From a bacterium (lineage in GTDB: Bacteria; CSSED10-310; JAJRTK01), in contig JAJRTK010000211.1 of the NCBI GenBank assembly GCA_024278345.1, positions 1-9,463 on the forward strand: a stretch of 9,463 nt of DNA. Direction: 5' to 3'. The notes under the pieces were generated by a model, which made no database searches, was not told the DNA's origin, and saw only the letters and a program-made list of their open reading frames with translations. Position numbers and translations under genes: made by a program. Shown one piece after another: positions 3,084 to 9,463 of the stretch (position 1 is the first letter of the stretch; every line of letters begins with the position of its first letter).

Positions 3084-3620
3084 ATGAATCGAAGAAGACA
3101 AGGCAAGTTTCAAGATTTCCTGAGCCGAAACCGCTCGATTTCACAGAGAATCTTCGACGAAGGCGTTCACCACCACGACGCCTCGCTCCAGCAGCTCAAG
3201 CGATTTCCCACGGACCTGTTCGGGCCTGGTGGAGAGGAACACGACCCGAAGATCTGGGAAGAATACACCCACTGGACCGAAACGCTGGCCTCAAGCCAGA
3301 GAATGGATTTTCAAGCCCGTTGGAGATTCGAGGATTGGCAACGGCGATGGCTCCAGCGGCTACGGTCCGCGCGCTGGCGGAAGGCGCCACCCCGCGGGCA
3401 GGGTCACGAATCGCCACATCACCAAGTCCCTGGCTCGATGGAAAAGGATCTCCTCTTCAACACTCTTGGCCTTGGGCCTTCGGCCAGCAACGAGGAGATC
3501 AAAGCCGCCTACCGAGAGCTGGCCAGCCGCTTCCATCCCGACCGCGAAGGGGGAGATACGGCCAAGATGCAAGAGCTCAACGCCGCCTACGAAGGACTGC
3601 GGCAACTCCGAGGATTCTGA
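3084..3620 (+). CDS. C-terminal J-domain (DnaJ-like) co-chaperone protein
   Basis: A 178-residue protein with a J domain at its C-terminus, about residues 122-175. Seen: a helix II-like stretch EEIKAAYRELASRF, the invariant HPD motif at 151-153, and the helix III signature MQELNAAYEGLR. HPD is the contact that stimulates ATP hydrolysis by DnaK/Hsp70. The N-terminal ~110 residues have no recognised domain; they are rich in Arg, Trp and charged residues, include HHH at 29-31, and have no membrane segment. There is no Gly/Phe-rich region, zinc finger or DnaJ C-terminal domain, so this is a class C J-protein in which the N-terminal part probably selects the client. The ATG at 3084 lacks a clear Shine-Dalgarno but is the only reasonable start. 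It is transcribed alone from the promoter at 2974-3002 and converges on the RelA/SpoT gene. Confidence 0.82.
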   Translation: MNRRRQGKFQDFLSRNRSISQRIFDEGVHHHDASLQQLKRFPTDLFGPGGEEHDPKIWEEYTHWTETLASSQRMDFQARWRFEDWQRRWLQRLRSARWRKAPPRGQGHESPHHQVPGSMEKDLLFNTLGLGPSASNEEIKAAYRELASRFHPDREGGDTAKMQELNAAYEGLRQLRGF

Positions 3621-3778
3621 TGATCCGGGGTGTCACGTCAACGGTGAGGGACGACCGAACCCAAGGCGATGAAGAAGTGAGCGGAACGTAAGAGGGGAAG
3701 CTCGCACGGCAGGCCCGGGTCATGCCGTGGGTGCGGATATCAACGAGAGGCAAGTGACCGAATTCCGGTCGAAAGAGG
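3621..3778 (+). other. Structured non-coding stretch, possibly a ribozyme or intron remnant
   Basis: No coding sequence is supported between the J-domain stop and the rel stop. The plus strand can form CACGGCA (3705-3711) with TGCCGTG (3723-3729), and GACCG (3756-3760) with CGGTC (3766-3770). Purine-rich connectors such as GCGGAACGTAAG and GATATCAACGAGAGG give it the look of a folded RNA. The style recalls bacterial group II intron domain I, but I see no reverse transcriptase, no domain V and no defined ends. It runs directly into the repeat copy beginning at 3779. Confidence 0.3.
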
Positions 3779-3900
3779 CTTTTGGGGCATGGAGAAGGCG
3801 TCAAGGGCGATGATATGCGAGCAGCGGTCGGCCGGATGGACGCCGATGGGAGCGGAACGCAACACCAAGAAAAAAGGTTACCGAGAACCTTGCGCAAAAC
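3779..3900 (+). repeat. Non-coding repeat, copy A (inverted relative to copy B)
   Basis: Copy A begins with CTTTTGGGG (3779-3787). Its core, 3817-3871, matches the minus strand of 6092-6039 at 47 of 55 aligned positions, including 11 identical bases (GCGAGCAGCGG) and 16 identical bases (3843-3858). Weaker similarity continues to about 3900. Single-base gaps shift the frame between copies, so conservation is at nucleotide level rather than as protein. The 3' end of the rel gene, including its stop codon, lies inside this copy. Confidence 0.8.
3870..3891 (-). terminator. Weak intrinsic terminator of the rel gene
   Basis: On the minus strand AAGGTT (3891-3886), a six-base loop and AACCTT (3879-3874) form a 6-bp stem, followed by a run of T ending at 3870; the last stem bases overlap the T-run. 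The rel TAA stop (3880-3878) is part of the hairpin. The stem has only two G:C pairs, so termination would be partial at best. Confidence 0.35.
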
Positions 3901-5938
3901 GAGGACCACTCTCCGAATTCCGACGCCGACGTAAACTCCAAAAAATGGATCGGAGACCGGGTATTTGCCGCAACCTGGAGGCCACATTGGCAAGGGTGTG
4001 GAGATCGATGCTGATCGCCTGGAGCATGACGACCCCTTCCCCTCTTTCTTTATGGGCATTGAGGCCGCTGAGGCTAAACCCTTGAAACGGCATCAGTACA
4101 TCGGCTGCCAGGGCGGGACGATCAGCCCCCCGGATTTCCAAGTAGATGACCGGAAGAGGATCGGAAAAACGCCAACAAGCCGGAAGGCGCCGCTTATTTT
4201 TCCGCAGGATCCCACACGACTCCAGATGAAGCGAACCCCCTTGGCCCGCAATCAGCTCACACCGGATGGGCTCCCCGGGCAAGGGCGAACAAGAACAGGT
4301 CGTCTGAAAGAAGGGGTCCCTCTCGGTCACTTCCGCGCAAAACCCCTGGTACAACTCGCTTCGGCTGAGCCGAGTCAACGGCTTGAAGGCGGGAAGGATC
4401 TCCACCCAGCGATGAAGCTGCTTCGGGCCACCGTAGAGGAATTCCTCCAGCATTTCCTCGGAGATCCGTGCGAACGCCTCTCGCCCATCCTCCGCCAAAA
4501 GGGTCTCCACGTGGGGTTTTAGCAACCGCCGTGCCAACTCCACGGCCCTGCTCTGAATCGCTTGCGCCAGTGCTCGTTGAATCGCTTGCCGCGCCACAAC
4601 CGTCCGGGGAAGTTCCATCCAATACCGCTCTGGCCCCGCCTCGGGCGACGTCAAAACTTCCACGACATCTCCGTCGGACAGTCCGTGCTCGATACCCACC
4701 ACGCGGCCATTGACCACGGCTCCTGTCATGTGCAACCCGAGGTCGGTATGGATCTGAAACGCGAAGTCAAGAGCCGTGGCGCCGCCAGGAAGATGGATTC
4801 GATCTCCAGCGGGCGTCAAAAGCTGTATCCCTCCCTGCGCCGCAAGATGCGACATCACATCTTCCACGCGGAGATCCTGCTCCTCGGTCATCTGGGCCAG
4901 CATATCCAGATACCGCCGATAGTAGCTGAAAGCCTTGGGCTGCTCGAGAAACCGGTGGAGCACGCCGTCTTCGTTACACCGCTGCATTTCCCGGGTAGCG
5001 ATGCGAACTTTGTGGCTCCCCTGAAGATAGATGGTCGTGTGGAGAGACCGGTAATCATTGGCCTTGGGGTTAGCGATGTAATCGAAGACCTGACTGGGTA
5101 AGACGCGAAGCCTCCGGTGGATGACGCCGAACGCCTGGTACACCTGCTCCGGCGTGTCGGTAAGAACCAACAGATCATAATGCGACGATGGATCAATATC
5201 GACCTTCAGTTTTCCCGATTCCCTGTCGTAAAACATCCCGAACGGACGCCATGCAATCCGAACTTCAAACTGTGGCAGCTCCCTCTCCAAGCTCTGGAGG
5301 GCGCGACCCGCCTCGGCCAAGAGGTTCTCATCAGCCCGCTGTCGATGAAGAATCTCCAGCTCCCCGGGCTGGAGCACCCTCAAGATCAAATCCTGGATCT
5401 GCCTTGCCACGGCCCACATGCCAAGACGCTTAGCGATATCGGCGTAGAGAAACGACTCCCGGGCCTTCCGTTTCCTTTTCTTCGGTGGCAAAGCATCCAG
5501 CGTCCGCAAGTTGTGAAGCCTGTCGAAAACCTTGATGATCAGGACACGAATGTCCAGGGCGGCACGACTGAGAAGCTTATGATAGGTGAGCACAGCCTCT
5601 CCGGGTCCCTTGGTCGCCTTGGTGACACCATCGATAATTCGAGCAAGTGCAGGCCCATACACCTCGCTGATGCTCTCCAGGCTCGCGCTAGTATCCTCCA
5701 CGGTATCGTGAATAAGCGCTCCAAGAATCGTCAGCTCGTCCAGCCCGGCGCGGGCACAATACAATGCCACCATGAACGGGTGAGTAATATAGGGCTCCCC
5801 GCTCTTTCGAGCCTGCCCGCGATGCAACTCCTCCGCATGGTGAGCCGCGGCGCGAATGCGTCCCAATTCACCATCGGGATAGATGCGCTGGAAGGTTTCC
5901 AGGATCTCCGCCAAAAGGGTTTCTGCTCGCTCATCCAT
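3878..5938 (-). CDS. Long RelA/SpoT homologue: intact (p)ppGpp hydrolase, degenerate synthetase
   Basis: A 686-residue stringent-response protein with the full long-RSH layout. Seen: HD hydrolase domain about 25-180 with R44, H53 (THP), H77-D78, E81-D82, and D139-R-L-H-N143, all expected Mn2+ and substrate residues; synthetase-fold region about 220-340; TGS about 368-430 with H397; helical region; Cys-rich domain with C548-S-C550, H571 and C575; ACT domain about 595-668. In the synthetase region the usual R.K...SI..K ATP loop reads RPFGMFYD, the Arg after the catalytic Asp strand is lost (YDLLVL, 254-259), and the catalytic Glu of VE(V/I)QIRT is replaced by Lys (HKVRIATREM, 309-318), while the substrate-loop DYIANPKANDYRSLHTT survives. 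Predicted role: ppGpp degradation with ribosome/tRNA-sensing regions retained, as in SpoT proteins reported to have lost synthesis. The ATG at 5938 has no Shine-Dalgarno. The last ~17 residues are Arg/Ser-rich and partly encoded by repeat copy A. Confidence 0.93.
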   Translation of the reverse strand: MDERAETLLAEILETFQRIYPDGELGRIRAAAHHAEELHRGQARKSGEPYITHPFMVALYCARAGLDELTILGALIHDTVEDTSASLESISEVYGPALARIIDGVTKATKGPGEAVLTYHKLLSRAALDIRVLIIKVFDRLHNLRTLDALPPKKRKRKARESFLYADIAKRLGMWAVARQIQDLILRVLQPGELEILHRQRADENLLAEAGRALQSLERELPQFEVRIAWRPFGMFYDRESGKLKVDIDPSSHYDLLVLTDTPEQVYQAFGVIHRRLRVLPSQVFDYIANPKANDYRSLHTTIYLQGSHKVRIATREMQRCNEDGVLHRFLEQPKAFSYYRRYLDMLAQMTEEQDLRVEDVMSHLAAQGGIQLLTPAGDRIHLPGGATALDFAFQIHTDLGLHMTGAVVNGRVVGIEHGLSDGDVVEVLTSPEAGPERYWMELPRTVVARQAIQRALAQAIQSRAVELARRLLKPHVETLLAEDGREAFARISEEMLEEFLYGGPKQLHRWVEILPAFKPLTRLSRSELYQGFCAEVTERDPFFQTTCSCSPLPGEPIRCELIAGQGGSLHLESCGILRKNKRRLPACWRFSDPLPVIYLEIRGADRPALAADVLMPFQGFSLSGLNAHKERGEGVVMLQAISIDLHTLANVASRLRQIPGLRSIFWSLRRRRNSESGPRFAQGSR

Positions 5939-5944
5939 AAAAAA

Positions 5945-5950
5945 AGTGTA
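5945..5950 (-). promoter_or_regulatory. Possible -10 box placing the rel transcript start at its ATG
   Basis: On the minus strand TACACT (5950-5945) is followed by six T and then the ATG at 5938, so the A of ATG lies seven bases after the -10 box, the usual transcription start distance. No Shine-Dalgarno exists upstream of the ATG. Together these suggest a leaderless mRNA. The region 17-18 bases upstream (about 5974-5968, TGGAAG-like) is a poor -35. Confidence 0.4.
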
Positions 5951-5994
5951 ACGGGTTTTTCCGCCAGCTTCCAGGACACACCCAAAAAATCCGG

Positions 5995-6128
5995 TCGTGC
6001 TCTTCTTTTAGGGCAGAGTTCTTGGCAAACCCTTTGTCTTCTTCGTGTTGAGTTCCGCTCCCATCGGTCGCCATCCGACGCCCGCTGCTCGCCATTCTTG
6101 CCCGTGGTGTCATCGAACACCCCAAAAG
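5995..6128 (-). repeat. Non-coding repeat, copy B (inverted relative to copy A)
   Basis: Read on the minus strand, this copy starts with CTTTTGGGG (6128-6120), continues with GCGAGCAGCGG (6092-6082) and the 16-base block at 6067-6052 shared with copy A, and fades near 5995. It fills most of the 227-base gap between the polA stop and the rel start. Its orientation is opposite to copy A, so the two copies bracket the rel gene as an inverted pair about 2.2 kb apart. Confidence 0.8.
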
Positions 6129-6165
6129 ATGGAACGCCGCCGAAACGTCCGTCGCAAAGGCCCCC

Positions 6166-9066: not shown

Positions 9067-9344
9067 CGCTACGCGTTTTTGGGGAGGGTGGCCGGTGCCA
9101 TGGACGAGGCCGCCAGAGAATATCGCGAGGCGACGCCGGAAGCAAGATGTCCGTGTCCTTTCGGTGGGGATGCTTGAAAGGAAGATATCTTGAAGTAGAT
9201 TGAGCTGGGGGGGGGAATTGGTCAGATGAGAGCAGCCGACCCTGGAGCAGATCGGTGGACTCGTCGGGTATCCACGCAAGGCGGGACATTCCCGGGACTG
9301 TGGAATCGAAAGCGTCCGGGCAACGCCTCGCTGTCGCTTGGCGG

Positions 9345-9463
9345 GTCACGTTTGCGTGACTCGAAGGGTCACGCCGTGCGTTACCCGAAGGTCGTCCGGG
9401 GATTCCATCCCCCGTCCCCTGGCAGGGCTTCGCCCTGCACCCACCAGGGAGTTACCTCCCTGG
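9345..9463. repeat. Tandem series of five hairpins, cut by the window edge
   Basis: Seen in order: GTCACG/CGTGAC (9345-9350 with 9355-9360); GGGTCACG/CGTTACCC with one mismatch (9366-9373 with 9379-9386); GGGGAT/ATCCCC (9398-9403 with 9407-9412); GCAGGGC/GCCCTGC (9422-9428 with 9432-9438); CCAGGGAG/CTCCCTGG (9444-9451 with 9456-9463). CCAGGG (9444-9449) can instead pair with CCCTGG (9417-9422), so the last two hairpins have an alternative fold. This is probably a dispersed intergenic repeat cluster (BIME-like) and may continue past the window. Confidence 0.55.

Follow-up and report, generated by a model that had tools for sequence, protein, structure and literature searches.

MITEs with a REP-like core hairpin beside rel in a bacterium of the CSSED10-310 lineage

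Genes and repeats of the rel locus

The window, i.e. the whole analysed stretch of 9,463 bp from a bacterium of the GTDB lineage CSSED10-310, contains a DnaJ-domain gene, rel and polA around two copies of a short repeat. The RelA/SpoT-type gene rel (3878..5938, minus strand) was assigned by its Pfam domains HD_4, RelA_SpoT and TGS. Copy A is located at the 3' end of rel on the plus strand (3767..3913) and was delimited as a complete MITE of 147 bp by alignment to full-length copies and by an exact 8-bp target-site duplication: CGAATTCC is found at 3759..3766 and identically at 3914..3921, where the terminal repeat predicts it. The ends of this copy are degenerate (GGTCG...), and its core, a REP-like hairpin followed by GAGCGGAACGCAACAC, was placed at 3816..3865 (plus strand) by the covariance model of the core (62.6 bits, E = 1.6e-14). 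Copy B, a MITE of 146 bp on the minus strand (5993..6138), occupies the 227-bp spacer between polA and rel and was likewise recognised by alignment to full-length copies. Its right terminal repeat is intact, with an exact match to the right-end pattern at 5993-6014; the left end is diverged and no target duplication was recognised around the copy. The REP-like hairpin of copy B, with GAGCGGAACTCAACAC, comprises 6045..6093 on the minus strand (73.4 bits, E = 8.2e-18). Except for one 36-nt match, no other family member was found at 3615-3770 beside copy A.

According to the reading frame of the empty site, copy A supplies the last 11 codons and the stop codon of rel. The encoded protein terminates in RRRRNS-ESGPRFAQGSR with copy A, whereas RRRRNS-VTCLSLISAPTA is predicted without it. 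As the frame thus ends differently, the insertion exchanged a short tail of rel past the recognisable domains.

The inverted pair around rel on which the original prediction was built is present, both in an ungapped repeat search of the window (arms 3833-3871 / 6039-6077, 39 nt, 87%) and by blastn (3817-3909 against 6092-5997, 77% over 97 nt, E = 1.5e-13). A new alignment of both elements yields about 49 identities in 56 columns of the core, so that the similarity of the cores stands while the count of 47 in 55 is replaced, and it contains the predicted identical block of 16 bases, CCGATGGGAGCGGAAC. The common start sequence was also recovered, since CTTTTGGGG is found at the left of copy A and of copy B. 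The predicted spans (3779-3900 and 6128-5995) were right in location but slightly too narrow in comparison to the limits 3767-3913 and 5993-6138. Because the copies belong to different subfamilies, they are two independent MITE insertions.

Both copies are part of a large dispersed family, as had been suspected. In the draft genome of 6.06 Mb, 341 places match GGGAGCGGAACGCAACAC with at most two mismatches and none match the reversed control, so that the similarity is not due to chance and the pair is more than a local duplication. The covariance model found 46 copies in an unselected sample of 394,771 bases, for which contigs were used in the order of their numbers; extrapolation from this sample gives about 700 per genome, and a similar estimate (about 730 copies) was obtained by profile search. 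The copies are non-coding and almost exclusively intergenic, and the search for many such copies with compensatory changes, proposed together with the prediction, returned both. Outside this genome the family was found neither in a DNA search of the genomes of 40 relatives nor with the core covariance model in seven genomes of the same phylum, and an exact pattern of 22 bases had just one isolated match among the GTDB contigs, in Methylobacterium soli.

Two further dispersed repeats border the window. Positions 1-145 belong to a repeat that blastn matched 25 times in 972 kb, in several cases with 96-99% identity over 115-146 nt, and the start of the contig lies inside it. A third family, partly palindromic (TTCCCGGGACTGTGGAATC...) and present at many genomic places, covers 9265-9463; the contig also ends inside a repeat here, which helps to explain the assembly into 550 contigs.

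Anatomy and insertion of the full-length elements

Full-length copies measure about 146-147 bp and carry imperfect terminal inverted repeats (GGTSGTGCTY...AGGGC). In the youngest subfamily the ends are sharp, and GGTGGTGCTCCAGCCCTAGGGCAATGGA on the left forms an imperfect inverted pair with GCCCTAAAAGAAGAGCACGACC on the right. The flanks of 27 full-length copies agree at 8 bp and at no other length, with a mean identity of 0.616 in comparison to 0.391 in shuffled pairings (maximum 0.495). Furthermore, nine exact 8-bp duplications exist at two-ended copies, where 0.6 are expected. The copy at C408:28004-28153 interrupts a member of another repeat family and has GGCCTTCC on both sides; at least six paralogues of this host repeat, 84-94% identical, continue across the junction without a break and represent the empty site. 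The duplications and the empty site together thus demonstrate that the elements insert and duplicate 8 bp of their target, and the supposed connection to mobile elements holds for the full-length copies. The host repeat itself constitutes a fourth repeat family, GCATGGAGGCCTTCCGGCCTCCATGC...CGTGTACTTTCACGGCAAGACAGATGTCTGCTTTGCGTG. Variant elements of about 169 bp were observed at L129:10480-10648, L126:17418-17586 and L135:12811-12979; their core hairpin is lengthened by a second nested stem, GGGGAACTCGCGCC..GGCGCGGGTCG.

Assignment to the MITEs is well supported for the family as a whole and for the two copies in the window: the elements are short, lack an ORF, possess terminal inverted repeats, make a duplication of constant length (8 bp) and share their ends with resident IS1-type fragments on contigs C58, C548 and C474, with no intact autonomous copy in the draft. 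Elements of the IS1 family are defined by GGnnnTG ends and target repeats of 8-9 bp (PMC10425158), and IS6 elements also have GGnnnTG ends and 8 bp (PMC6807381). The MITE ends GGTGGTG / GGTCGTG and the 8-bp duplication fit the IS1 definition, and fit IS6 too. A search of the genome for DDE_Tnp_IS1 gave three matches. The one on C548 lies above the cut-off with 26.4 bits and has one internal stop, the fragment on C58 remains below the Pfam cut-off with 21.2 bits, and the match on C400 is a different IS1-type fragment. On C58 and C548 the repeats GGTGGTGCTCYATRGTTAGGGC stand directly past the transposase stop, and IS ends match the left end of the MITE at up to 21 of 24 positions. NCBIfam gave no match to the transposase tail fragment.

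The remaining contigs with such ends fit into this picture. C273 and C545 terminate at the terminal repeat seen in C58 and C548, while C156, C187 and C549 run into the opposite IS end and then a start codon; contigs that break at IS ends are as expected of a multi-copy element that broke the assembly. On C474 (L194, C474:718 onward) an internally deleted IS1-type element of about 200 bp has kept both ends and joins the opposite IS end to the transposase tail, and is a MITE in the making. As MITE-type ends border an IS1-type transposase fragment, the elements can be classified as IS1-type MITEs, and an IS1 source of their ends is likely. No complete IS1 transposase gene is assembled in the draft, and mobilisation by an IS1-type transposase is therefore something we infer.

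The core hairpin and its relation to REP elements

In an alignment of the copies, the core of 49 nt is composed of GGCGA, a GNRG head, an 8-bp stem with a GGAY loop and finally GATGG-GAGCGGAACGCAAC; the stem is followed by the invariant motif GAGCGGAAC..CAAC. The head is mostly GTGG, GCAG or GTAG, with GCAG as common as GTAG. Of 110 cores, 48 have GT(A/G)G and 84 fit G-N-(A/G)-G at this place. In a set of 48 cores selected so that their stems differ, 90.4% of the stem cells are paired versus 74.3% after shuffling; counted over the 48 distinct stems, pairing amounts to 89% versus 72% in re-dealt ones, and many stems are perfect (8/8). Changes on both sides occur in nine of ten pairs, the covariation score is 0.500 versus 0.213, and structures slid along the alignment pair to just 25-61%. 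Of these 48 cores, 38 have A-U and 10 have G-C at pair 8-31; pair 14-25 is C-G, G-C, U-G or U-A, and neither pair contains a single mismatch. The conserved structured element proposed by the original prediction is thus borne out. Elements located by their ends alone carry the core in 44 of 47 cases for the right end and 35 of 44 for the left end, and the core is therefore an integral part of the elements and no search artefact.

Nearly half of the cores stand without recognisable ends or duplication. In 1.34 Mb, both ends were recognised in 50 of the 177 scorable copies, a single end in 46 and no end in 81, and the corresponding numbers in the 1.73-Mb sample are 64, 62 and 102. End-less copies exhibit no excess of 8-bp duplications (3 versus 1.4 expected), and no empty site for them was found in 1.73 Mb. 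The conservation of their cores is judged equal to that of full-length copies, with 0.65 versus 0.51 mismatches per 12 positions, and the stem is kept by compensation (88% versus 71%). In addition, they retain a trace of the MITE interior, namely GGGGCGA...A at -44 to -34 and an A-rich stretch to about +25, and some of them may therefore be MITEs with eroded ends. An end-less core is either a unit that moves by itself or one that is kept at each site as the ends decay.

A REP is a GT(A/G)G head directly before a GC-rich palindrome which is broken by 2-4 bases and changes by complementary mutations (PMC2817692). The core shows a GC-rich palindrome with complementary changes and far more than 100 intergenic copies, the number used for the GTAG superfamily; its conserved unit of 49 nt exceeds the 20-40 nt of a REP. 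A genome search revealed exactly one REP-associated tyrosine transposase (RAYT), at C390:22510-23232 (= L101:1012-1737). Its match to NF047646 (E = 1.4e-18) lies below the curated cut-off, probably owing to a long insert. The full ORF matches Y1_Tnp with 30.1 bits, Pfam Y1 stayed below the cut-off in a six-frame search, and the TnpA-REP structure 4er8 in the PDB is matched with E = 0.002. The insert is unusual, with two GAGSEPAPTQPDTTDRA-like segments between the HUH and the tyrosine parts.

Across the stop codon of the RAYT gene lies a diverged core (30.4 bits, E = 3.9e-8, 6/8 stem pairs), and RAYT genes with REPs overlapping their 3' end are on record (PMC3733652). The core is found at the 3' end only, versus the two inverted flanking copies of the REP definition, and at a density of about one per 9 kb a core beside any given gene is not rare. 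The palindrome and, in part, the head and the RAYT-linked core match published REP traits, and a REP origin is therefore favoured, with reservations as to the length, the additional invariant motif and the single core at the RAYT; the core is a probable REP element.

Spread of the family and comparison with known systems

The family as a whole is best explained, with good though not full confidence, by IS1-type MITE insertions which carry a REP core, of which copies A and B are two independent cases beside rel. An IS1-type transposase would cut and insert the MITE in trans. The RAYT would normally disseminate the REP core in folded single-stranded form, leaving no target duplication. One REP, or several, would have become enclosed by IS1 ends and from then on have been amplified inside the MITE as well. 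That both transposition systems contribute is reasonable but unproven. The stricter claim, that a REP is spread with its core intact by two unrelated chemistries, i.e. by an HUH-type RAYT without duplication and by a DDE transposase with an 8-bp duplication, is put forward tentatively, at somewhat less than even chances.

The strongest competitor is a single MITE family, in which all cores arrived as IS1-type MITEs and a functional hairpin, binding protein or acting as RNA, was selected while the ends decayed. The interior traces that persist beside end-less cores speak for it, as do the equal conservation of end-less and full-length cores and the compensation that keeps the stem in both groups. 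However, such a family needs selection to act site by site on hundreds of loci, among which no gene context is preferred, and the end-less copies lack the excess of 8-bp duplications. We regard it as unlikely, at about one chance in four.

Template-switch correction perfects imperfect palindromes. The stem complementarity could accordingly stem from mutation bias within quasi-palindromes and not from selection, and the many perfect stems are in line with this. However, while the arms vary, the loop and the flanking motifs hardly change, which calls for some kind of recognition, and pair 8-31 switches from A-U to G-C without any mismatch in the 48 sequences; mutation bias is therefore an improbable source of the pattern.

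The strong covariation and the invariant unpaired motif would also suit an abundant cis-regulatory RNA, i.e. a riboswitch or leader. However, the copies are distributed roughly in proportion to spacer length, in either orientation and with no strong strand preference, as judged from approximate gene calls by a home-made hexamer model, and the same-strand excess of end-less copies is weak (27 versus 14). Moreover, the target duplications prove that full-length copies were inserted, and the Rfam covariance models gave nothing relevant for the window up to E = 1, which also leaves the suggested ribozyme-like fragment without a family. The riboswitch or leader reading was rejected on gene context, and a regulatory RNA of this kind is very improbable.

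Just as improbable is the suggestion that A and B are the ends of a composite mobile element carrying rel or form a switch for its inversion: the inverted arrangement around rel and the genome-wide excess of inverted close neighbours favour it, but copy A is an entire element bounded by an exact duplication of its own, A and B come from different subfamilies and share no exact block longer than 16 bp, and rel, polA and the dnaJ-type gene resemble ordinary chromosomal genes. Inverted neighbours are common in this genome. In the 1.73-Mb sample, which holds 260 copies, 43 neighbouring pairs at a distance of 150 bp-3 kb are inverted and 12 direct (p = 3e-5), an excess that is marginal at 3-8 kb and gone beyond 8 kb, and the arrangement of A and B is therefore typical. 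The excess may have arisen because deletions removed direct repeats that lay close together. Recombination between A and B is unlikely to invert rel because the longest exact identity is 16 bp, and nothing suggests that the copies move or invert rel.

IS1-type MITEs with a REP cargo, the preferred explanation, share features with several known systems. The hundreds of intergenic copies with compensatory changes resemble the REP/RAYT (TnpA-REP) systems of the GTAG superfamily (PMC2817692; PMC3733652; PMC8266576), as do the GC-rich palindrome with a 4-nt loop directly after a G-N-(A/G)-G head, the single RAYT gene whose 3' end is overlapped by a copy and the mostly inverted orientation of close copies. 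In contrast to REPs, the core is longer (49 versus 20-40 nt), has a variable head and an added 5' GGCGA, and possesses an extra invariant 3' motif GAGCGGAACGCAAC; the invariant GAGCGGAAC is not a known REP feature either. The one flanking copy at the RAYT and the large share of cores inside MITEs with 8-bp duplications are further differences. The GGnnnTG ends, the 8-bp duplication, the resident IS1-type ends and the non-coding nature are shared with the IS1 family and IS-derived bacterial MITEs. However, the terminal repeats are imperfect and asymmetric here (left GGTGGTGCTC, right GGTCGTGCTC), and the interior carries a structured REP-like core which is not visibly IS-derived.

ERIC/IRU, Correia (NEMIS) and RUP are mobile-looking intergenic elements of 100-160 bp with internal secondary structure, but other ends and duplications. 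The present MITEs can be likened to them, by description only, in size, placement and internal structure. REP units nested in larger palindromes are known from Anabaena variabilis, Thermomicrobium roseum and Halothiobacillus neapolitanus (PMC3733652). The regular nesting within a second repeat is similar, whereas the carrier in the present case is itself a transposing MITE with proven 8-bp duplications.

How REPs spread is still poorly understood, and a family with both naked and MITE-borne cores allows the routes to be separated by their insertion scars. It also adds a structured repeat of about 700 copies, private to its lineage, from an almost unsampled phylum. Finally, repeats of such a kind can replace the ends of core genes, for example that of rel.
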